Of a stretch of 64,000 bases of DNA, positions 26,842 to 43,421 are shown in pieces. How positions within the stretch are numbered: the stretch's first letter is position 1; the number at the start of each line of letters is the position of its first letter. The stretch is from Sulfolobus acidocaldarius SUSAZ (GTDB taxonomy: Archaea > Thermoproteota > Thermoprotei_A > Sulfolobales > Sulfolobaceae), in assembly GCA_000508305.1 (NCBI GenBank), contig CP006977.1, positions 248,001-312,000 on the forward strand, in the 5' to 3' direction. Below the pieces are notes generated by a model, which was not told where the DNA came from, did not search any database, and saw only the letters and a list, made by a program, of their open reading frames with translations. The position numbers and the translations under genes were made by a program.

Positions 26842-27609
26842 TTAGAGATTGATTCTTTCGGGATGAGTATATACATTAAAGCTATTTCCTCTAACAAAAC
26901 CAACAAGTGTTGCACCTGCATCCTCTGCTATTTCTATAGCTTTACTCGTTGGTGCTGAAATACCGCTTATAATTGGAATTCCTGCTTTTATTGCCTTACT
27001 TACAATTTCATAACCTATTCTACCACTAACCTGAAGTATCCCATCAGTGAAAGGAAGGCGTCTCTTATGGATTAAATTTCCTATTACCTTATCAACAGCG
27101 TTATGTCTCCCCACGTCTTCATATATACTTATTAATTCACCACTGAGTGTAAACAGAGCAGCTGCGTGTAGACCACCAGTAATATTAAATACTCCCTGGT
27201 TACTCCTCAGTTTCTCAGGGAGTGAGATGATAACCCCATTATTTATCTTTGCGTCAGACTTTAGTAATTCAATAGCATTAAGAAAACCTCTACCACAGAC
27301 ACCACAACTAGAGTTAATGACAAAATTCCTCGTCTCCACAAATTTACCATTGGTTAGCCTTACATGTATTTCATTATCGGATAACATACTGATTTCTTCA
27401 ACATCCCTTAAACTATCAATGTAGCCCTCATAATAAAGGAACCCTAACGTAAGCTCTAAGTCATTACCTGGAGTTCTCATTATTATAGCTAAATTTTTTT
27501 CATTTACAAAAATTTGAAGAGGCTCTTCAACAGCAACAAAATCTTCAGAATTGACTCTATAACCGTCCTTAACCTTACTAATCTTGACTTTCCTTATTTG
27601 CACTACCAA
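26842..27609 (-). CDS. fdhD: FdhD, sulfur carrier for formate dehydrogenase
   Basis: FdhD transfers sulfur to the molybdenum cofactor of formate dehydrogenase, making the enzyme active. 255 residues. The sulfur-accepting motif is SCGVCGRGFLN near residues 100-110. GGLHAAALF, EDVGRHNAVDKVIG, VSGRIGYEIVSKA and SAPTSKAIEIA are family features. The start is TTG or GTG, overlapping the DUF1641 gene by 32 nt. It is the third gene of the fdhA operon, which supports a formate-dehydrogenase reading for FdhA. Confidence 0.92.
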   Translation of the reverse strand: MVVQIRKVKISKVKDGYRVNSEDFVAVEEPLQIFVNEKNLAIIMRTPGNDLELTLGFLYYEGYIDSLRDVEEISMLSDNEIHVRLTNGKFVETRNFVINSSCGVCGRGFLNAIELLKSDAKINNGVIISLPEKLRSNQGVFNITGGLHAAALFTLSGELISIYEDVGRHNAVDKVIGNLIHKRRLPFTDGILQVSGRIGYEIVSKAIKAGIPIISGISAPTSKAIEIAEDAGATLVGFVRGNSFNVYTHPERINL

Positions 27610-27940
27610 TCGCCTTTAATAATTTCAACAACAAATATAAACCTCTTCTTACATCAGGGTCATTAAGCTCTCTCACAATTTCGCTTAATTTTACGTCTTT
27701 TACCTCCTCCTTACCTGCTAGTATAGAGTAAATCTCATTCACATTCCTTATAAGCATGGAATTTTGTTCAGCCAAGAATGTTAAGTTTTCATCAAATTTC
27801 ATGAGGACGCCATTCAGAAACTGCAATATACCTGCTTTATGAAGAGCATTTATCAACTTTAGGAACTGCTCTAATGCCTCTCTACTCTCAGTTAATTCCT
27901 CAATTAATCTGTCAAAGGTTTGAATTCCTCCCTCTTCCAT
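27578..27940 (-). CDS. DUF1641 protein in the formate dehydrogenase operon
   Basis: 120 residues, helical. The C-terminal half, SEIVRELNDPDVRRGLYLLLKLLKAIG split by Asp-Pro, is the DUF1641 signature. It overlaps both fdhA (37 nt) and fdhD (32 nt), so it is made in step with them. In many archaea and bacteria DUF1641 proteins sit beside formate dehydrogenases or SQR-type flavoproteins; their job is unknown. A much larger DUF1641 protein with three repeats is at 41435. Confidence 0.8.
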   Translation of the reverse strand: MEEGGIQTFDRLIEELTESREALEQFLKLINALHKAGILQFLNGVLMKFDENLTFLAEQNSMLIRNVNEIYSILAGKEEVKDVKLSEIVRELNDPDVRRGLYLLLKLLKAIGSANKESQD

Positions 27941-30834
27941 TTCTCTTCCACCTGTATTCCTATTTGTTTTTTCCTCTCTTTCGTATGATACCTCCAGTTA
28001 TATGTAGGTAATGGGTTATCTGTTTTACTTCCTTCTTGCAACTTTTCTATAATAACAGGCGTGTCCTTATACCCTGGAGTCCCACTGCCCTTATCTATTA
28101 TGGGAGCAGTTAAGATGTTTACACCCTTGGACGGATCTGAAGCGTATAATGGAATAAATATCTCATCACCCTGAACTCTATCTGTTACTAATGCTCTCGC
28201 CTTAATCTCTCCACCAAATTTCGATTTTACCATTATGAGGTCTCCCGTATTAATCGAGTACTTTTGAGCCAATTCTTTAGAGACCTCCACAAAAGTTTCA
28301 GGTACTCTTCCTGTGAGTCCAGCTACTCTCCTCGTCATATTACCAACGTGGAAGTGCTCTAACACTCTTCCGCTATTTAGGGTTATCTTATGAACCTCGT
28401 CTCTCATTTCAACTGGTTTAATCTCTAGAGGATACATTATAGCTTTACCATCTGGTGTCTCAAATTTTTCAGTATAAAGCAGAGGTGTATCTCTGTCCCC
28501 ATAAACAGGCCATACTAGACTGTTGAAGCCCTCCAATTTAGTGTAACTCACTCCATTAAATATTGGACATAGTCTAGCAACTTCATCCATTATATCTGAG
28601 GGGTGTTTATAATTCCAGTTCGCTCCCATTGCATTAGCTATCATCTGTATTATTTCCCAATCCGCCTTTGCCTCTCCAATAGGCTCCATTGCCTTGTAGA
28701 ACCTCTGTATTCTTCTTTCAGTATTTACAAATGTCCCCTCCTTTTCCAGATTGGAAGCAACGGGTAGGACAACGTCAGCTAACTTAGCAGTTTCTGTCAT
28801 AAACATGTCTTGAACTACCACAAAGTCAGCCTCTTCCAATGCCTTCCTGGTTAAAGGAGTACCGCAGTCCACCATCACAGTGTCCTCTCCTATAATGTAC
28901 AAACCGTGTATTTTACCGTCAAGAACTCCTTCAATCATCTGGGGAATTTGAAGACCAGGTTTTTCATTGAGTTTAGCCTTCCAGTTCTCTTCGAATTTTT
29001 TAATTACTCCCTCTTCAAACTTCTGATATCCTGGCAAATAGTTAGGTAAACAGCCGAAGTCACTAACACCTTGAACATTGTTGTGACCCCTCATTGGGTA
29101 AGCCCCTGTGCCAGGTCTGCCATAATTATCAGTCAACAGTAAGAGATTAGATATCATAGTTGAAGTGTCAGCTCCATTCACGTGTTGGGTAATCCCCATT
29201 CCCCAAAGAACAACTACGTTCTTAGCATTGTGTATAAGTTCAGCCAACTTAATTATTTGAGCTTTTGGTACTCCTGTGACAGACTCAACATAATCCAAGT
29301 CAAAACCTTCAATAGACTCCTTAAACTTTTCAAAGCCATTTACACGATTCCTTATGAACTCCTTGTCCTCCCATCCTTTATCCAGAATGTATTTTGCTAC
29401 ACCAGCCAATATGATCGCGTCATTGCCTGATTTTGATTTTATGAACAAGTCAGCCCACTCAGCTATTTCATGCCTTCTCACATCGATTACAGCAATTTTA
29501 GCTCCTCTTATCTTCTTTGCCCTCTTTACTTTACTGCCTATAACAGGGTGACTTTCTGTGGTGTTATGACCAATCACAACAATTAAGTCGGCACTCTCAA
29601 TATCCCTTATTGTTCCAGAGTCTGCTCCAAAGCCCACTGTCCTCCATAATCCCACAGTTGCAGGAGCTTGGCAATACCTGGCGGAGTTGTCCACATTATT
29701 AGTTCCTAGTACCGCTCGGGCAAATTTTTGGGCTAGATAAGCCTCTTCATTACTCATCTTGTCTGATGCGATAACACCTATAGCGTCTGGACCGTATTTT
29801 TCTTTTATTTCTTTAAATTTCCTCGAAATAAGAGAGATAGCTTCCTCCCATGTAGCCTCCCTGAACTTATCCCCCTCCCTTATCAAGGGTTTAGTGAGTC
29901 TATCTGGACTATTTACGAAATCCCACCCGAACTTTCCTTTAACACATGTGAGTATTCCATTTGCAGGAGACTCTGGCTTCGGTTCTATCTTTAATATTTT
30001 TCTTCCCTTAGTCCAAACTTCGAATGAACATCCAACACCGCAGTAAGTACAAACTGTCTTCGTCCTTTTTACCTGAGTTTCTCTAGCCTTAGACTCCAAT
30101 TCACTTAGAGTCATAAGTAGAGAAAAGTTGTCCTCTGCTTTCCCAATAGCTTCTATAGCTTTTTTCTTTAAATCTTTGTTTATCCAGGTAAAGAATCCTG
30201 CTTCACCTAGCATGCTCTTCTCCATCAATGCATTCACTGGACATACTGTTACACAAGTCCCACAGTTAACACAAGAGGAATTTCCTATGGGATTACGATT
30301 ATCCCAGACTACTCTAGGGGGGTTTAAATTCCAATCAATCCAGATTACTTCATTTACAGCAAAATCTTGGCAAGCCTCAACACACCTACCGCATAGAATA
30401 CATTGTGAGGGGTCATAAGTATAAAAAGGACCAGTATCGTCTAAAGCGTATCCCTTATCCACATACTTCTGAGAGTTTATATTTAGCTTAATTACTGCTT
30501 CATGAAGCTCACAATCTCCATTATTATTTTCACAAATAGTACAGTATAACTTATGATATCGAAGTATTCTACTGACTGCAGTCTTCCTAGCATTTAATGC
30601 TCTAGGAGAATTAACGTTAATTGACATTCCTTCTACTGCCTTAGTTGCACATGATCTGACAAGTTTACCGTTAACTTCCACTATACACGTATCACAACTT
30701 TGTATCGGCGTTAAACCAGTGTTATAACATACATGAGGCACATAGAACCCTTTTTCCATAAGAGCTAAAGCTAAGCTTAATTCTGTACTCAGTTCCACCT
30801 CTTTACCATCAACTTTAACCCTTACGGAACCCAT
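27904..30834 (-). CDS. fdhA: Formate dehydrogenase alpha subunit-like molybdopterin oxidoreductase
   Basis: 976 residues. The N-terminus is NuoG-like: a [2Fe-2S] ferredoxin with CYNTG-CDTC-C, CTICENNNGDC, then two 4Fe-4S motifs CILCGRCVEACQ and CVNCGTCVTVCP. The catalytic part has CTYCGVGCSFEV and a probable Mo-ligand Cys388 in RYCQAPATVG, in place of selenocysteine. C-terminal domain binds molybdopterin (GRVPETFVEV, EIFIPLYASDPS). Two-electron oxidation of formate to CO2, or another small substrate, is expected in the cytoplasm. Downstream DUF1641 and fdhD support formate. ATG start at 30834. Confidence 0.87.
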   Translation of the reverse strand: MGSVRVKVDGKEVELSTELSLALALMEKGFYVPHVCYNTGLTPIQSCDTCIVEVNGKLVRSCATKAVEGMSINVNSPRALNARKTAVSRILRYHKLYCTICENNNGDCELHEAVIKLNINSQKYVDKGYALDDTGPFYTYDPSQCILCGRCVEACQDFAVNEVIWIDWNLNPPRVVWDNRNPIGNSSCVNCGTCVTVCPVNALMEKSMLGEAGFFTWINKDLKKKAIEAIGKAEDNFSLLMTLSELESKARETQVKRTKTVCTYCGVGCSFEVWTKGRKILKIEPKPESPANGILTCVKGKFGWDFVNSPDRLTKPLIREGDKFREATWEEAISLISRKFKEIKEKYGPDAIGVIASDKMSNEEAYLAQKFARAVLGTNNVDNSARYCQAPATVGLWRTVGFGADSGTIRDIESADLIVVIGHNTTESHPVIGSKVKRAKKIRGAKIAVIDVRRHEIAEWADLFIKSKSGNDAIILAGVAKYILDKGWEDKEFIRNRVNGFEKFKESIEGFDLDYVESVTGVPKAQIIKLAELIHNAKNVVVLWGMGITQHVNGADTSTMISNLLLLTDNYGRPGTGAYPMRGHNNVQGVSDFGCLPNYLPGYQKFEEGVIKKFEENWKAKLNEKPGLQIPQMIEGVLDGKIHGLYIIGEDTVMVDCGTPLTRKALEEADFVVVQDMFMTETAKLADVVLPVASNLEKEGTFVNTERRIQRFYKAMEPIGEAKADWEIIQMIANAMGANWNYKHPSDIMDEVARLCPIFNGVSYTKLEGFNSLVWPVYGDRDTPLLYTEKFETPDGKAIMYPLEIKPVEMRDEVHKITLNSGRVLEHFHVGNMTRRVAGLTGRVPETFVEVSKELAQKYSINTGDLIMVKSKFGGEIKARALVTDRVQGDEIFIPLYASDPSKGVNILTAPIIDKGSGTPGYKDTPVIIEKLQEGSKTDNPLPTYNWRYHTKERKKQIGIQVEEKWKREEFKPLTD

Positions 30835-37822: not shown

Positions 37823-39139
37823 TTACTTTTGTTGAAACTTATACCATTTAACCCTATCAGGAAGTGTCAGATAGAAATCAATCTTTCTATGTTTTGGATA
37901 TAGGTACTGGGTTTCTTCCTTTCCTTCTCTTAAATCATGTAAGTACTGCAGGAACTTCTCTTTGTGATCATCAACTGGTACACCTATTTTCCTCAAAAAT
38001 CCCTCTACATCCGTAGCATGCCAATGTATTTGGGCAATAGTATAGGGATCGGCTCCCATAGCGAGAGCAACAAATTGTGCATCAGCTAAAACTGGTAAAT
38101 TATAATTAACTCCATGTGCCTTACCAACCCATTGACTCTTATCTAAGGTTGTTACACACCCTGTATCGGAGGTTACGAAAACATCTGCATGACCCTCTTC
38201 TACAGCAGGTATAACTTTTTTAAATAGAGCAAAGCTTCTGGTAAATTCCCTTTCAGTCAGAATATGTCTGAAACCAAATCCACAGCAATCCCACCATGTA
38301 GAATAATCTACTAATTTAGCGCCTAAATTCTTCACTGTACCTGAAGGAGCAGCAGGTCTTCTTCCCTGGTAAACTTCAGGGTCATATATTGTATCCTCTG
38401 GAACTAACTTGTATATATGACATGGTGTATGAACAGCAGCCTTAACTCCTTCTAGGTTATATTTCTTCTGCTGTGCAGCTTTCTTGCTCATAACATACAT
38501 CCATTCAGAGTAGTGGACTACTTCTTCTGGTACAACTATGTCCATGTCTAGTTTTCTCATTATTGGTCTTAGCTTCTCTCTTATTTCACTGTGTAGTATT
38601 ATCATGTTCCTCATTTCTTTATAGTGCCCAAAAGAGGTACCACAATGTATTAGAGGGAAATAGTCTGTTTCATAAGCCCTCCACATATTTCTAACATAGA
38701 CACCTGCTAATGCGACAGGATTAGACGCACCAGATGCGTGATAGTTCCAACCAGTACATGAAGTCTGATGAGGTTCGTCTAAATAATCAATCTCAAGTTT
38801 ATTCATGATCCAAAATACTGAGGTTGGGTAACCAGGGATATGACCACACTGACCGCAACTCTTGTGATGCCATAACTTTGTTGTTGGAATTTTTTTAGGA
38901 AGACCATTTAAGGACTGATATTCTACAGGATTATATGTGGGTTTAACGTGATGGACTAGTATCTCACCCTTATCCTCTAGCTTATATAACTCCTCCTTAA
39001 CGTGCTGGAGACCATGAGGTGTACTGTACTTATAAATTATCCTCTGATAAACTTCCTCCCAATCCACCTGGTCAGCCATAGGAAATGCTTCCTTTATAGC
39101 CTCGTCAAGCTTCTTCTCCTGTTCTTTATTCATACTCAT
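37823..39139 (-). CDS. hdrB2: sHdr complex subunit B2 (large CCG-domain protein)
   Basis: 438 residues. SCGQCGHIPGYPTSVFW and TSCTGWNYHASGASNP form the first cysteine region; HTPCHIYKL, WDCCGFGFRHILT and TSDTGCVTTLD the second. The length is that of sHdrB2, longer than HdrB1. An N-terminal helical extension of about 80 residues precedes the cluster region. It opens the leftward hdr operon; a TATA box 23 nt before the ATG suggests a short or absent leader. Confidence 0.88.
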   Translation of the reverse strand: MSMNKEQEKKLDEAIKEAFPMADQVDWEEVYQRIIYKYSTPHGLQHVKEELYKLEDKGEILVHHVKPTYNPVEYQSLNGLPKKIPTTKLWHHKSCGQCGHIPGYPTSVFWIMNKLEIDYLDEPHQTSCTGWNYHASGASNPVALAGVYVRNMWRAYETDYFPLIHCGTSFGHYKEMRNMIILHSEIREKLRPIMRKLDMDIVVPEEVVHYSEWMYVMSKKAAQQKKYNLEGVKAAVHTPCHIYKLVPEDTIYDPEVYQGRRPAAPSGTVKNLGAKLVDYSTWWDCCGFGFRHILTEREFTRSFALFKKVIPAVEEGHADVFVTSDTGCVTTLDKSQWVGKAHGVNYNLPVLADAQFVALAMGADPYTIAQIHWHATDVEGFLRKIGVPVDDHKEKFLQYLHDLREGKEETQYLYPKHRKIDFYLTLPDRVKWYKFQQK

Positions 39140-39157
39140 ATCTGAGACACCTTTGTT

Positions 39158-39167
39158 ATTTATAAAA
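39158..39167 (-). promoter_or_regulatory. TATA box of the hdrB2 operon
   Basis: Minus-strand TTTTATAAAT, 23 nt before the ATG at 39139; spacing is slightly short of the usual 26-28. Confidence 0.4.
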
Positions 39168-39629
39168 TATTAATAAAAATATAAAAACTTTTCCTAAAGC
39201 TGTTTTACCTAAAAAACTTGGTTCAGTTGGGAAGAGTCCGTGATTCTAGTAGCTAGGGTAGTATTTTTGAAGTAAACTGAATAAAATACTTTCAATAAAA
39301 TAGGTAATAATAATTAAATCATTAAGGTATTTCTCTGTGTAGTAAGTAATCACCGCTTTAGCGCAACTTTTTAAGATAAAAAGAAATAATCTAATTATTC
39401 ACTAAACTTGTTAAACTTGCACAAATTGACTGGTAAACGTAAATTAGGTCTTAAATTAAATTAAAAAAGTATTACATTTTCAAAAACAACATAAACTGTC
39501 TTTTTATTTTTTAAATTTCCTACAAGTAGATTCCAGAACCGTAAATGATATTAAGTTAATACGTACATTATAAAATTATTAAGCACACTTTGTACAGCCT
39601 TTATAAAAAATTTATTAATCACAATTTAC

Positions 39630-39643
39630 CATATATATATAAA
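39630..39643 (+). promoter_or_regulatory. TATA box of the tusA-like/SQR-like operon
   Basis: An ATATATATATAAAA run ends 14 nt before the GTG at 39657. The AAGGTGA just before the GTG can act as a ribosome site if the message has a leader. Confidence 0.4.
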
Positions 39644-39656
39644 AGGTGACTCAAAG

Positions 39657-39890
39657 GTGAGCAGTCTGAGAATATATAAAGAACTCGACTTAACCAGTTC
39701 CTCATGTGCAGGACCAATTGGTGAACTCTCAGGTGTGATAGATGAGCTTCAAGATAATGAAGCTGTTAAAGTAATATTGGGAGATGAGGCGACAAAAAAG
39801 GACATAGTATTATGGGCGAAGAGAAGGGGAGTTAAGATAGTAAAGGAAGAGCAGGAAGGAAGTAAGCACATATTATTCATAACTAAATGA
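39657..39890 (+). CDS. TusA-family sulfur carrier protein
   Basis: 77 residues, single TusA/SirA fold. The reactive Cys lies in SSCAGPIGEL, a CxGP variant of the usual CPxP motif, followed by VILGDEATKKDIVLWAKRRG. TusA proteins shuttle persulfide sulfur. It is first in the operon with the SQR-like flavoprotein, a DsrE-like protein and DUF1641, and divergent from hdrB2. GTG start. A second TusA with a normal motif is at 43422. Confidence 0.83.
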   Translation: MSSLRIYKELDLTSSSCAGPIGELSGVIDELQDNEAVKVILGDEATKKDIVLWAKRRGVKIVKEEQEGSKHILFITK

Positions 39891-39901
39891 GGTGATACAG
39901 T

Positions 39902-41059
39902 TTGGCTAAAAGGATAATTGTAGCAGGAGGAAATATAGGAGGTACAATAATAGCAAATAGGCTAGCCCAAAAACTAGATCATGAACTTCATAAAGGAGAA
40001 GTGGAAATTGTAGTTTTAAACAAGAACGATGACCATATTTACTACCCAGGACAATTGTTATTATCCTACGGTCTTGAGACTCCACCAGAATTAATGAAAA
40101 AAGAGAGCGAGCTTCTTGATCATAGAATTAAGTTCGTACATGGTGAGAAAGGAACTATAACAAAGTTTGACCCAGCAAACCACTCTGTACTAACTGCAGA
40201 TGGAGTTTCCCACAGCTATGACTACTTAGTTATTACAACTGGAGTAGAGTACAGTTGGGACGAAATACCAGGCTATAGGGCTGGGTCAGTAAACTTCTAT
40301 GAATATGAGGATGCACTGAAGATGAGAGAAGCCCTAAACAATTTCCAGGGAGGAACAATCGTAGTTAATACAGCAAGATTACCCCACAGATGTCCTGTTG
40401 CTCCCTTAGAGAATACATTAATCCTAGATGATTACTTAAGAAAGAGGGGGATAAGGGACAAGACTAAAATTATTTACACATATCCAGTTCAGGGAGTATT
40501 TGGAAGACCAATAACCAATAAATTCATGCTAAAGCTATTTGAAGAGAGAGGTATTGAAGTACATTCACCCTTCACTGTAACAAATGTAAACCCAACTGAG
40601 AAGATAATTGAGTCTCAAGAAGGAGGTAAGTTGAAGTATGATTTACTAATTGCAATTCCACCAAATATGGGAGCAAAAGTTGTAGGAGATTCAGGATTGG
40701 GTGACAGGAGGAGATGGCTACCAACTGATAAGTTTACCCTTAGAATGAAAGACCATTCAAATGTGTATGTAATGGGAGATACTACTGATTTACCAGTATC
40801 TAAGGCAGGCTCCACTGCAGACTTTGAATCTTATGTAGTATCCCACAACATAGCAAATGACATTAAAGGTAATTTAGGTATGAAGCACTACGGAGGAGAT
40901 GTACTCTGTTACATAGCCACTGGAACTGATCAAGCAACCTACATTAGGTTTAGTTATACCATGAACGAGAGTCCTCCACCCCCATCCTATATCCACTGGT
41001 GGGGGAAGATAATGTACAATAAATTATACTGGACTGTAACAGCCAAGGCAGTGGTATAA
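39902..41059 (+). CDS. SQR-like sulfide:quinone oxidoreductase family flavoprotein
   Basis: 385 residues. FAD Rossmann start ([18 protein letters not shown]), [27 protein letters not shown] and [12 protein letters not shown]. It has just two cysteines, Cys164 (PHRCPVAP) and Cys336 (VLCYIATG). From memory their 172-residue spacing equals that of the two catalytic cysteines in Acidianus ambivalens SQR; the third SQR cysteine is missing. TTG start with a strong GAGGTGAT site five bases before. Sulfide or carrier-bound persulfide is the likely substrate, with membrane attachment via its C-terminal aromatic segment ([15 protein letters not shown]). Confidence 0.82.
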
Positions 41060-41060
41060 A

Positions 41061-41441
41061 ATGAAAGTAGGAATAATAGTGGGTACTAATGAGAGGGCGA
41101 GACTAATCTATGCAGCAATGAACTCTGTAATATCCTCATCTATGGGAGACGAAGTATTTGTATTCTTGACAATGGATTCAGTAAGGGCTTTCACAAAAAA
41201 CCCAGAAGTTAAAGACTCAGATGTGTCATCAAAAACAATGGTTGAAAAGAAAGATGAGGACTTTGCAGGGCTCTTTAAAAAGGCAAAGAAGAGTGGAAAG
41301 GTGAAGATTTATGCTTGCTCTTACGCTAGCAAACTGTTTAACTATAGTAAAGCAGACTATAATGACCTTGTGGACGAAATAGCGGGAATAACTACTTTCA
41401 TGATGGATGTAGAAGGAGGACAAATTATCTCAGTGTGGTGA
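41061..41441 (+). CDS. DsrE-family sulfur-relay protein
   Basis: 126 residues, DsrE/DsrF-like fold: VGIIVGTNERARLIYAAMNS, a VFVFLTMDSVRAF strand, then IYACSYASKLF containing the candidate sulfur-carrying Cys. It follows the SQR-like gene by one base and precedes DUF1641 with an overlap. Sulfur hand-over between the TusA-like protein and the SQR-like enzyme is a reasonable role. Confidence 0.78.
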   Translation: MKVGIIVGTNERARLIYAAMNSVISSSMGDEVFVFLTMDSVRAFTKNPEVKDSDVSSKTMVEKKDEDFAGLFKKAKKSGKVKIYACSYASKLFNYSKADYNDLVDEIAGITTFMMDVEGGQIISVW

Positions 41442-42367
41442 AAGTAATGCAAGACCTTAATCTAGATAAGATTTTTTCTAAATTGGATCAGAAGAGAATT
41501 GATGCATTATCTGAATTAGTGGAACTAACACCAACATTAACTGAATTACTTAAGAAACTTGATGAGCTGAAAGAATCAGGAACACTGGACACATTGATCA
41601 ATTATGCGTACATAGGAAAAACAATGAAGGATATGCTGAATGACGATGCACTTCAAAACCTTAGTAACACAGTTTCCAGTCTATTAGAGCTTACTAAGGT
41701 TCTGTCCAGACCTGATACATTCCATAATACCATGAGGTTAATGAATAATATAGACGCATTGGCTGATGTTACAAGCAAATTGAGGACAATGAAAGAAGAC
41801 GGAACATTAGATGTACTTATGAATACTGCTTACACTATTAGGACATTCAGGGATATGCTGAATGACGAAGCTCTAGCTAACATTTCAAGGTATACGTCCA
41901 ACCTGTTAGAGATTTTGAGGGAAATGGACGATAACTCAGTAAGATCATTGAAGAGCATATTAAGAAGGGCTAAGACTATAGATGGCTTAATGGTCAGATT
42001 AGAGGAGCTGGAAAATTCAGGAGCACTAGATGTGTTATTAAACCTAGCCTATGCAGGAAAAACAATGAAGGATATGCTGAATGACGATGCATTGGCTGAG
42101 ATAGGGAAATATCTCTCCCAGATCTTGGAGGCTTATCCTAGAGTTATGGGATTACTAAATAGTGTGACAGATGGAAATGGTCTCATCTCAAGAATGATGA
42201 ATGTAATGAAATCAGAGGACGTTAAAAAGGCTTTAGAATCTCCTCCCAAAGTGTCTATCAGTGGCTTGATTAAGCAGTTATCAGACCCTGAGGTACAAGC
42301 AGGTCTTGGAGTATTGTTCTCGATAATTAAAGCAATAGGAAAAGAATTCTCGAGTTCTAATAAGTGA
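41435..42367 (+). CDS. Large DUF1641 protein with three internal repeats
   Basis: 310 residues, predicted all-helical. A unit of about 46 residues occurs three times: LDELKESGTLDTLINYAY, SKLRTMKEDGTLDVLMNTAY and RLEELENSGALDVLLNLAY, each followed by a [KR]T[MF][KR]DMLND[DE]AL stretch. The C-terminus has the DUF1641 signature PKVSISGLIKQLSDPEVQAG. Repeats one and three share a perfect 37-base DNA match, so duplication is recent or maintained by conversion. Start is GTG 41435, GTG 41438 or ATG 41447. As last gene of the SQR-like operon it may anchor the flavoprotein. Confidence 0.82.
   Translation: MVKVMQDLNLDKIFSKLDQKRIDALSELVELTPTLTELLKKLDELKESGTLDTLINYAYIGKTMKDMLNDDALQNLSNTVSSLLELTKVLSRPDTFHNTMRLMNNIDALADVTSKLRTMKEDGTLDVLMNTAYTIRTFRDMLNDEALANISRYTSNLLEILREMDDNSVRSLKSILRRAKTIDGLMVRLEELENSGALDVLLNLAYAGKTMKDMLNDDALAEIGKYLSQILEAYPRVMGLLNSVTDGNGLISRMMNVMKSEDVKKALESPPKVSISGLIKQLSDPEVQAGLGVLFSIIKAIGKEFSSSNK
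41614..42091 (+). repeat. Perfect 37-base direct repeat pair inside the DUF1641 gene
   Basis: 41614-41650 and 42055-42091 are identical over 37 bases, starting AGGAAAAACAATGAAGG. The middle copy (around 41830-41870) is diverged. They encode GKTMKDMLNDDA in both places. Confidence 0.85.
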
Positions 42368-42504: not shown

Positions 42505-43347
42505 TTACAAATCTAGCCAACTATCAGGCAATTCGTCTTCGTTAAGCTCTCCCTTTTCCCATTTCTCTTTTAGTTCCTCCAACTGTTGCTTTCTCTCTTC
42601 ATAAATATCCATAATCATGTCATAAAGATCCTTATCCACATTCTTGAGAGAATCAAGAACTCCTGATTCGATAAAGATTGTCATTAACTCTACTGCTGTC
42701 TGTAATGATGTATGCCAACCTACATCAGACCTTTGTAGTAAATCCACTGGTATTGCCTTTCTATAGACATCCATGTTCTCAGACTCCTCTAAGGCTCTTG
42801 GTCCCCAGTCTGGGAAAGCCTCAGGTTGAATCATATTAGGTGTTACTTGATTTCCTGTGGTTATCACTGTCAGTAAAACTCTTCTGTAAGGGGCAAGCAC
42901 TTCCTTAGCTGATGGTAAAGCAAATTTCACTGCATATTCTCTCAATAACATTATCAAACCCGCAATTTCATTATTAAATGGGCATCTCATTGAGCACGTA
43001 TAACACTGTACACAAGCCCACACTTTCTTGTTGGTGAATTCCCAAATCTTATCGACAGAATCCCTCATCATATACTGAATCATTTCCCTTGGTCCAAAAT
43101 CGTAAAACTTGGCTGCAGGACACCCTGAGGTACATACTCCACAGTTTAAGCAACCCCTCAAATATTCATTAAATCTGAAATCGCTTTTCACAGATTCCCA
43201 AAATCTAATTGCCGCTTCTCTTTCCTCAGGTTTCAAATTGCTTATTAGATTCCTCTCTTCCTCAGCTACTGCTCCTTGTACCTCATATGACATATCCAAG
43301 TATCTAGGGTCGTCAGGTAAAGGTGGAGTTATAGTTTTAGCTGCCAT
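42505..43347 (-). CDS. hdrC2: sHdr complex subunit C2 (two 4Fe-4S clusters)
   Basis: About 280 residues. Ferredoxin motifs CLNCGVCTSGCPAAKF and CVQCYTCSMRCPFNNE, each with FGPREMIQYM-type linker as in HdrC, lie in the middle, followed by a long helical C-terminus with VDKDLYDMIMDIYEE. ATG 43347 is chosen; GTG 43356 is also possible. It is in the leftward dsrE-tusA-hdrC2 operon, so C2 is encoded apart from the main hdr operon, about 3.4 kb to the right of hdrB2. Confidence 0.86.
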   Translation of the reverse strand: MAAKTITPPLPDDPRYLDMSYEVQGAVAEEERNLISNLKPEEREAAIRFWESVKSDFRFNEYLRGCLNCGVCTSGCPAAKFYDFGPREMIQYMMRDSVDKIWEFTNKKVWACVQCYTCSMRCPFNNEIAGLIMLLREYAVKFALPSAKEVLAPYRRVLLTVITTGNQVTPNMIQPEAFPDWGPRALEESENMDVYRKAIPVDLLQRSDVGWHTSLQTAVELMTIFIESGVLDSLKNVDKDLYDMIMDIYEERKQQLEELKEKWEKGELNEDELPDSWLDL

Positions 43348-43421
43348 CAAATTCACACAAATAAATAATATAAGAAGGGTACTTATAAATTTTTATTATA
43401 ATAAAAAAAATTGAACTTTAC

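Follow-up and report, generated by a model that had tools for sequence, protein, structure and literature searches.

Organization of the locus

The window analysed here is a 64-kb stretch (64,000 nucleotides) of the complete 2.06-Mb genome of the Sulfolobaceae member Sulfolobus acidocaldarius SUSAZ (G000). Its plus strand carries four genes at positions 39657-42367. A tusA-like gene with a GTG start (39657-39890, 77 aa; Pfam TusA) is followed by a gene with a TTG start for a flavoprotein resembling type III sulfide:quinone oxidoreductases (SQR; 39902-41059, 385 aa; Pfam Pyr_redox_2 and FCSD_central), a dsrE-like gene assigned to the DsrE4 group of Liu 2014 (41061-41441, 126 aa; Pfam DsrE) and a gene for a DUF1641 protein (41435-42367, 310 aa), predicted from Pfam, its repeats and profile matches in the PDB to be a quinone/membrane-coupling subunit. 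All four Pfam assignments exceed the curated cut-offs. The ORF map agrees with the initial annotation, which had described four tightly packed genes at this place: successive genes are separated by 11 bp and 1 bp and then overlap by 7 bp, and this spacing makes a single transcription unit likely. By direct count, the SQR has two cysteines (164 and 336), the TusA-like protein one (17), the DsrE-like protein one (86) and the DUF1641 protein none. A transmembrane scan found a membrane segment in none of the four proteins.

A divergent intergenic region of 517 bp (39140..39656) separates the operon from hdrB1 (37823..39139, minus strand, 438 aa), and hdrC1 (42505..43356, minus strand, 283 aa) lies at the other end, so that the operon parts these two neighbours. 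The divergent gene had initially been taken for hdrB2. However, the published numbering, in which Saci_0329 is HdrB-1, Saci_0334 is HdrC-1 and Saci_0331 is a sulfide oxidoreductase, makes it hdrB1 (PMC2246294). By the same numbering, the operon corresponds in position to Saci_0330-0333 and sits in the hdr cluster, flanked by hdrC1 and hdrB1.

The flavoprotein is probably a type III-like SQR

The flavoprotein has two dinucleotide folds, as seen from its Pyr_redox_2 and FCSD_central domains and from an AlphaFold model (pLDDT 93) whose closest solved fold is human SQOR (TM 0.89). Its profile matches human SQOR with an E-value of 3.4e-55 and the SQR of Acidianus ambivalens with 3.7e-37. The redox cysteines Cys164 (codon 40391-40393, plus strand) and Cys336 (codon 40907-40909, plus strand) fall into the catalytic columns and align with the cysteines of both enzymes. 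The initial annotation had held that the flavoprotein keeps just two cysteines, 172 residues apart, and that this is the spacing of the SQR catalytic pair. The count gave residues 164 and 336, and the published A. ambivalens pair, C178/C350, is also 172 residues apart (PMC8551704), which confirms both statements.

The best NCBIfam model is that of type III SQR (NF049943, 344 bits, E 9.9e-103; the curated cut-off of 525 for the selenoprotein subtype is not reached). SQRs of Sulfobacillus have been typed as III or V (PMC4378227). Identity with the known type V SQR was ruled out: in the tree the window SQR does not group with the orthologues of the A. ambivalens enzyme and falls into a separate clade (support 100), with 29% identity to a close type V orthologue. 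Scans for amphipathic helices and transmembrane segments did not separate it from type V enzymes. Since a type V query found no orthologue in the S. acidocaldarius genome, just a weak match (29%), the window SQR is the only SQR-family gene there. The species has been stated to have no SQR (PMC8551704, PMC11143483), and Saci_0331 was annotated as SQR in a 2007 study (PMC2246294). Judging from its sequence, the flavoprotein is probably a type III-like sulfide:quinone oxidoreductase.

Two putative sulfur carriers

The TusA-like protein combines the TusA profile (54.8 bits, Pfam cut-off 28.6) with an invariant active-site cysteine, Cys17 (codon 39705-39707, plus strand). According to Pfam and the alignment, this residue lies in a CAGP motif. 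The canonical CPxP is thus missing in the window and in archaeal orthologues; bacterial cassettes have CPGP. The DsrE-like protein scores 42.6 bits with Pfam DsrE, its nearest solved structure is 2qs7 (E 4e-9), and its single cysteine is Cys86 (codon 41316-41318, plus strand). It shows the properties of the DsrE4 group (Liu 2014), namely DsrE family membership, a conserved active cysteine and a gene located downstream of sqr. The two proteins are probably carriers that take sulfur from the SQR.

The DUF1641 protein

The fourth protein matches Pfam DUF1641 with 57.2 bits. Three tandem helical repeats of about 73 aa (aa 34-106, 108-177 and 181-252; 41534..42190, plus strand) precede a C-terminal PF07849 motif containing ..SDPEVQAGL.. 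(aa 265-303; 42227..42343, plus strand), and orthologues likewise have two, three or four such repeats and then the DUF1641 motif. The AlphaFold model is of low confidence (pLDDT 65, pTM 0.28), too weak for a fold search. With the profile, the best natural matches in the PDB were YjlC (6.9e-8), ForE1 (1.7e-7) and an entry named 'NDH-2 membrane coupling protein' (1.9e-7); the match to HucM was weak (1.2e-3), and designed helical-repeat proteins score as well. The C-terminal motif and the similarity to solved members, weak for HucM, place the protein in the ForE/YjlC/HucM type. NCBIfam matches to MurU and to short-chain dehydrogenases were far below cut-off and were disregarded.

DUF1641 genes tend to accompany SQR genes. 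In Thermoproteota outside the Sulfolobaceae, 32 of 37 immediately follow an SQR-like gene, and the canonical type V SQR genes of Sulfolobaceae are followed by a DUF1641 gene too. From the PDB profile matches and this gene pairing we infer that DUF1641 couples SQR to quinone or to the membrane; in sequence terms, the protein is likely a quinone/membrane-coupling subunit of SQR. Passages of PMC8808070 describe ForE as required for the menaquinone coupling of ForC. Among the passages on DUF1641 consulted in the literature, none presents the protein as a partner of SQR; one, in PMC7409299, notes the neighbouring gene. A second DUF1641 gene is present in the window, between the formate dehydrogenase gene fdhA and fdhD, which is the ForCE arrangement.

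Conservation of the operon and its relation to the hdr cluster

The order tusA-sqr-dsrE-DUF1641 on one strand recurs at 17 of 20 other Sulfolobaceae loci. The remaining three comprise one split and divergent locus (L034) and two that lack dsrE (L049, L050). Among the Sulfolobaceae orthologues, window included, Cys17, Cys164 and Cys336 are invariant (27/27 each), as is Cys86 (23/23), and no other cysteine recurs in the SQR alignment of this family.

The association with hdr is far less conserved. Of 21 Sulfolobaceae module loci, only those of G000 and of G032, a second genome of the same genus (2,225,959 bp), adjoin hdr; orthologous operons are mostly sited elsewhere. The other 21 hdr clusters of Sulfolobaceae all have hdrC1 next to hdrB1, at a distance of about 84-249 bp and without the operon in between, which means that the operon does not belong to the conserved gene set of the cluster. 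Its insertion there must be derived, since hdrC1 and hdrB1 are contiguous in the other clusters and the operon is sited elsewhere in those genomes; the contiguity of the two genes also speaks against the operon having belonged to the cluster from the start, and this idea was rejected. The earlier description of an operon facing hdr is correct in that it diverges from hdrB1, but the arrangement is confined to this genus.

A cassette shared with bacteria

Searching named genomes with the SQR alignment yielded 524 relatives, the best 80 of which were analysed. These 80 are mostly bacterial (Bacillota including Sulfobacillus, Pseudomonadota, Nitrospirota) and share 39-47% identity with the query. 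Among the best 80 of 524, tusA is found directly upstream of sqr (<300 bp) in 77 of 79 cases, a DUF1641 gene downstream in 73 of 79 (in five of these after dsrE) and dsrE within 2.5 kb in 63 of 79; five of the six DUF1641 exceptions end at a contig edge. The bacterial gene order is dsrE-tusA-sqr-DUF1641, and Pfam independently confirmed DUF1641 in four of five bacterial genes tested. Within the same best 80 relatives, SQR Cys336 (80/80), TusA Cys17 (80/80) and DsrE Cys86 (64/64) are fully conserved. Cys164 is present in 80/80 as well, a partly circular count because the scan pattern contained C164, whereas the other three cysteines lay outside it.

Archaeal and bacterial cassette SQRs together form one clade (SH-aLRT 99), separate from the type V orthologues of the A. 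ambivalens enzyme, in a quick tree that has some long branches outside this clade. One locus titled Euryarchaeota (L120) was not counted as euryarchaeal because the hdrB matches of its genome equal those of G154, a Sulfolobaceae genome, in place and score; the titles of L117-L119 are unverified MAG names. Conservation across Sulfolobaceae and, in altered order, across bacteria argues that the four-gene unit did not arise by chance. Both the recognition of this cassette as a widespread unit and the identification of DUF1641 as a probable quinone-coupling subunit of SQR appear to be new.

Cassette-bearing genomes were also inspected for possible destinations of the sulfur. Among 42 of them, 19 have an sHdr-type HdrB1 (E < 1e-90), 22 have DsrA above cut-off and 35 have either; DsrA exceeded the cut-off in none of 14 control genomes, a set not matched by taxon. 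Four loci (L129, L133, L155 and L164) have hdr-type genes no more than 6 kb away from the cassette. Three Bacillales cassettes (L122, L131 and L158) have no dsrE and stand beside tauE, in genomes that contain neither sHdr nor DsrA.

Published expression data

According to a passage of PMC7409299, Sulfobacillus thermotolerans grown on sulfide concentrate showed a 5.8-fold increase of the SQR BXT84_01945 and a 2.2-fold increase of the 335-aa DUF1641 protein BXT84_01950; in our locus L135, from the same strain, the cassette sqr is immediately followed by a DUF1641 gene of 335 aa, matching BXT84_01950. The operon of Methylacidiphilum encoding a type III SQR, TusA and DsrE2 was 1.7-1.8-fold up with H2S (PMC10205796). 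At 30 min after UV, SSO2261, which is listed as corresponding to Saci_0331, had risen 7.6-fold together with hdr genes (PMC2246294). PMC11323534 lists 'sqr-alt', 'sirA' and 'dsrE' as sulfur-responsive genes, which may correspond to genes of the operon.

Proposed function and alternative explanations

Taken together, the sequence data make it fairly probable that the four genes specify a module for sulfide oxidation in the cytoplasm, made up of a type III-like SQR, a DUF1641 coupling partner and a TusA/DsrE relay to sHdr. H2S would attack the Cys164/Cys336 pair of the SQR, with electrons passing via FAD to quinone, as suggested by homology, the conserved cysteine pair and the fold. The helical-repeat DUF1641 protein would dock the SQR at the membrane, bring the quinone, or both, as YjlC does for NDH-2, ForE for formate dehydrogenase and HucM for the Huc hydrogenase. 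The dedicated TusA-like and DsrE-like proteins would take over the sulfane sulfur as cysteine persulfides and may pass it on to carriers of cytoplasmic oxidation, which in this archaeon would be those of sHdr. The initial annotation had already proposed a module passing sulfur between sulfide or quinone and the sHdr carriers. Homology, synteny, cysteine conservation and co-occurrence with sHdr or Dsr support the SQR identity, the catalytic cysteine pair and a putative relay role with sHdr, but the proposal missed the likely coupling role of DUF1641 and the lack of conservation of the hdr adjacency.

Some observations count against the sulfide-oxidation module. S. acidocaldarius oxidises sulfur poorly. 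Archaeal TusA has CAGP for CPxP, orthologous operons without dsrE exist (L049, L050, L097, L099), the hdr adjacency is lineage-specific, and the PDB matches of DUF1641 fall mainly in its C-terminal part. Moreover, Saci_0331 was not induced after UV (0.87-1.25; PMC2246294).

Among the alternatives, the flavoprotein could be a carrier-persulfide:quinone oxidoreductase that oxidises or forms sulfur on its own carriers and does not act on free H2S. The position of tusA directly upstream of sqr, nearly constant among the best 80 of 524 relatives, and the altered motif of archaeal TusA would fit such an enzyme. However, both catalytic cysteines of the SQR are invariant, the fold is the one seen in sulfide-oxidising enzymes and the comparable Methylacidiphilum operon is H2S-induced (PMC10205796); we regard this explanation as quite improbable. 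It also seems unlikely that the operon is a sulfide or persulfide detoxification unit uncoupled from sHdr, which came to lie in the hdr cluster by an accident of rearrangement. The occurrence next to hdr in just two of the 21 Sulfolobaceae loci, the weak sulfur oxidation of S. acidocaldarius and the Bacillales cassettes beside tauE would all be explained in this way, but not the presence of sHdr or DsrA in most cassette genomes, the four loci with hdr-type genes close by or the joint response of SSO2261 and hdr after UV (PMC2246294).

A further possibility concerns DUF1641 alone, which might be a chaperone, scaffold or regulator of SQR and not its quinone/membrane-coupling subunit. The protein has neither a cysteine nor a transmembrane segment. 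A structural role is conceivable because ForC1 without ForE1 also retains only a minor part of its formate:benzyl viologen activity, as stated in passages of PMC8808070. Nevertheless, we give this explanation a small chance, the best natural PDB matches being partners of quinone-reducing enzymes, including the one named as a membrane coupling protein of NDH-2.

If the operon does encode a sulfide-oxidation module, S. acidocaldarius, a model species reported to have no SQR, would offer a genetically accessible one. The module would also close the gap between sulfide and the TusA/DsrE carriers of sHdr; how sHdr obtains its sulfur is a matter of debate. SQR would join formate dehydrogenase, NDH-2 and Huc hydrogenase as users of one DUF1641-type device for quinone access, and DUF1641, a domain family of unknown function, would become testable. 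More tentatively, with the odds slightly against it, cassette SQRs and type V SQRs with DUF1641 may not be stand-alone monotopic enzymes: a DUF1641 helical-repeat stalk of two to four repeats would be needed for them to reach membrane quinone or to be supplied with it, and the dedicated TusA/DsrE subunits would take the sulfur before free polysulfide forms, creating a channel that feeds sHdr or Dsr.

Comparison with known systems

The unit had initially been thought undescribed, which goes too far; the part that appears to have escaped notice is DUF1641. Partial units have been published (PMC4175335, PMC10205796), and the hdr adjacency of the S. acidocaldarius sulfide oxidoreductase gene was noted in 2007 (PMC2246294). 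In Metallosphaera cuprina, tusA-sqr-dsrE4 corresponds to Mcup_1722-1724, DsrE4 being defined as encoded downstream of SQR (Liu 2014; passages of PMC4175335). These three genes share the order tusA-sqr-dsrE with the window operon and are very probably orthologous to it, but they lie in a 'sulfur island' with TQO and not in the hdr cluster, and the passages describing them mention neither DUF1641 nor a mechanism. Alike by description is MFUM_v2_0219-0221 of Methylacidiphilum fumariolicum, a single H2S-induced operon for a type III SQR, TusA and DsrE2; it differs in being bacterial, and DUF1641 is unreported there (PMC10205796).

The type V SQR of A. ambivalens (3h8i) has the SQR fold and a cysteine pair 172 residues apart, as in the window SQR. 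Unlike the window sqr, type V genes of Sulfolobaceae have no directly adjacent tusA or dsrE in the loci inspected. ForCE formate dehydrogenase also pairs a DUF1641 protein with a soluble dehydrogenase and needs it for menaquinone reduction, as described in passages of PMC8808070, although the catalytic subunit is a molybdenum enzyme unrelated to SQR. The YjlC-YjlD pair (PDB 9pxk/9snk/9a63) uses NADH and not sulfide, has neither TusA nor DsrE, and its DUF1641-type partner (140-176 aa) is shorter than the repeat protein found here. However, it likewise joins such a partner to a quinone-reducing flavoprotein with two nucleotide folds (NDH-2), and both of its components are matched by proteins of the operon.

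DUF1641 genes beside SQR and hdr genes

The pairing of SQR with DUF1641 extends beyond the SQRs of the cassette, since a DUF1641 gene lies directly 3' of type V (A. ambivalens-type) SQR genes in Sulfolobaceae (loci L096, L098, L100, L101 and L102). In another member of the family (genome G011, L034:8286–11459), the cassette is rearranged, with sqr-DUF1641 divergent from tusA-dsrE. Within the DUF1641 gene of the operon, the first and third of the repeats at window 41534–42190 have a near-identical DNA stretch in common (..acaatgaaggatatgctgaatgacgatgca..), suggesting that a recent duplication or gene conversion occurred. For the SQR gene itself, UV induction is stated for both Sulfolobus species in the text of PMC2246294, but Table 1 of that paper lists values of 0.87–1.25 for Saci_0331, at odds with this statement.

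In many other Sulfolobaceae, an additional DUF1641 protein, divergent in sequence and 417–462 aa long, is encoded just past the dsrE3A-dld-hyp-trx genes that adjoin hdr (L073:14965–16224, L074:15171–16559, L075:2896–4155, L080:3035–4291, L083:16386–17639, L085:15249–16502, L086:2836–4089 and L088:15929–17299; the L086 copy was confirmed by Pfam). No DUF1641 gene was found at this position in S. acidocaldarius SUSAZ. The hdrB matches in the genome of locus L120, titled 'Euryarchaeota archaeon', are those of the Sulfolobaceae genome G154, at the same place and with the same score; the title is misleading.

A third DUF1641 protein of SUSAZ (357 aa, with internal repeats) is encoded on the reverse strand at L104:9794–10867 (near 106.8 kb on contig C1), and no obvious dehydrogenase adjoins its gene. 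Overlapping genes at window 26842–30834 (reverse strand) form one operon for a formate dehydrogenase alpha subunit (976 aa), a DUF1641 protein (120 aa) and FdhD. This is an archaeal ForCE-like arrangement. The alpha subunit contains a Cys-Gln pair (..ARYCQAP..), a feature that it shares with ForC-type enzymes.
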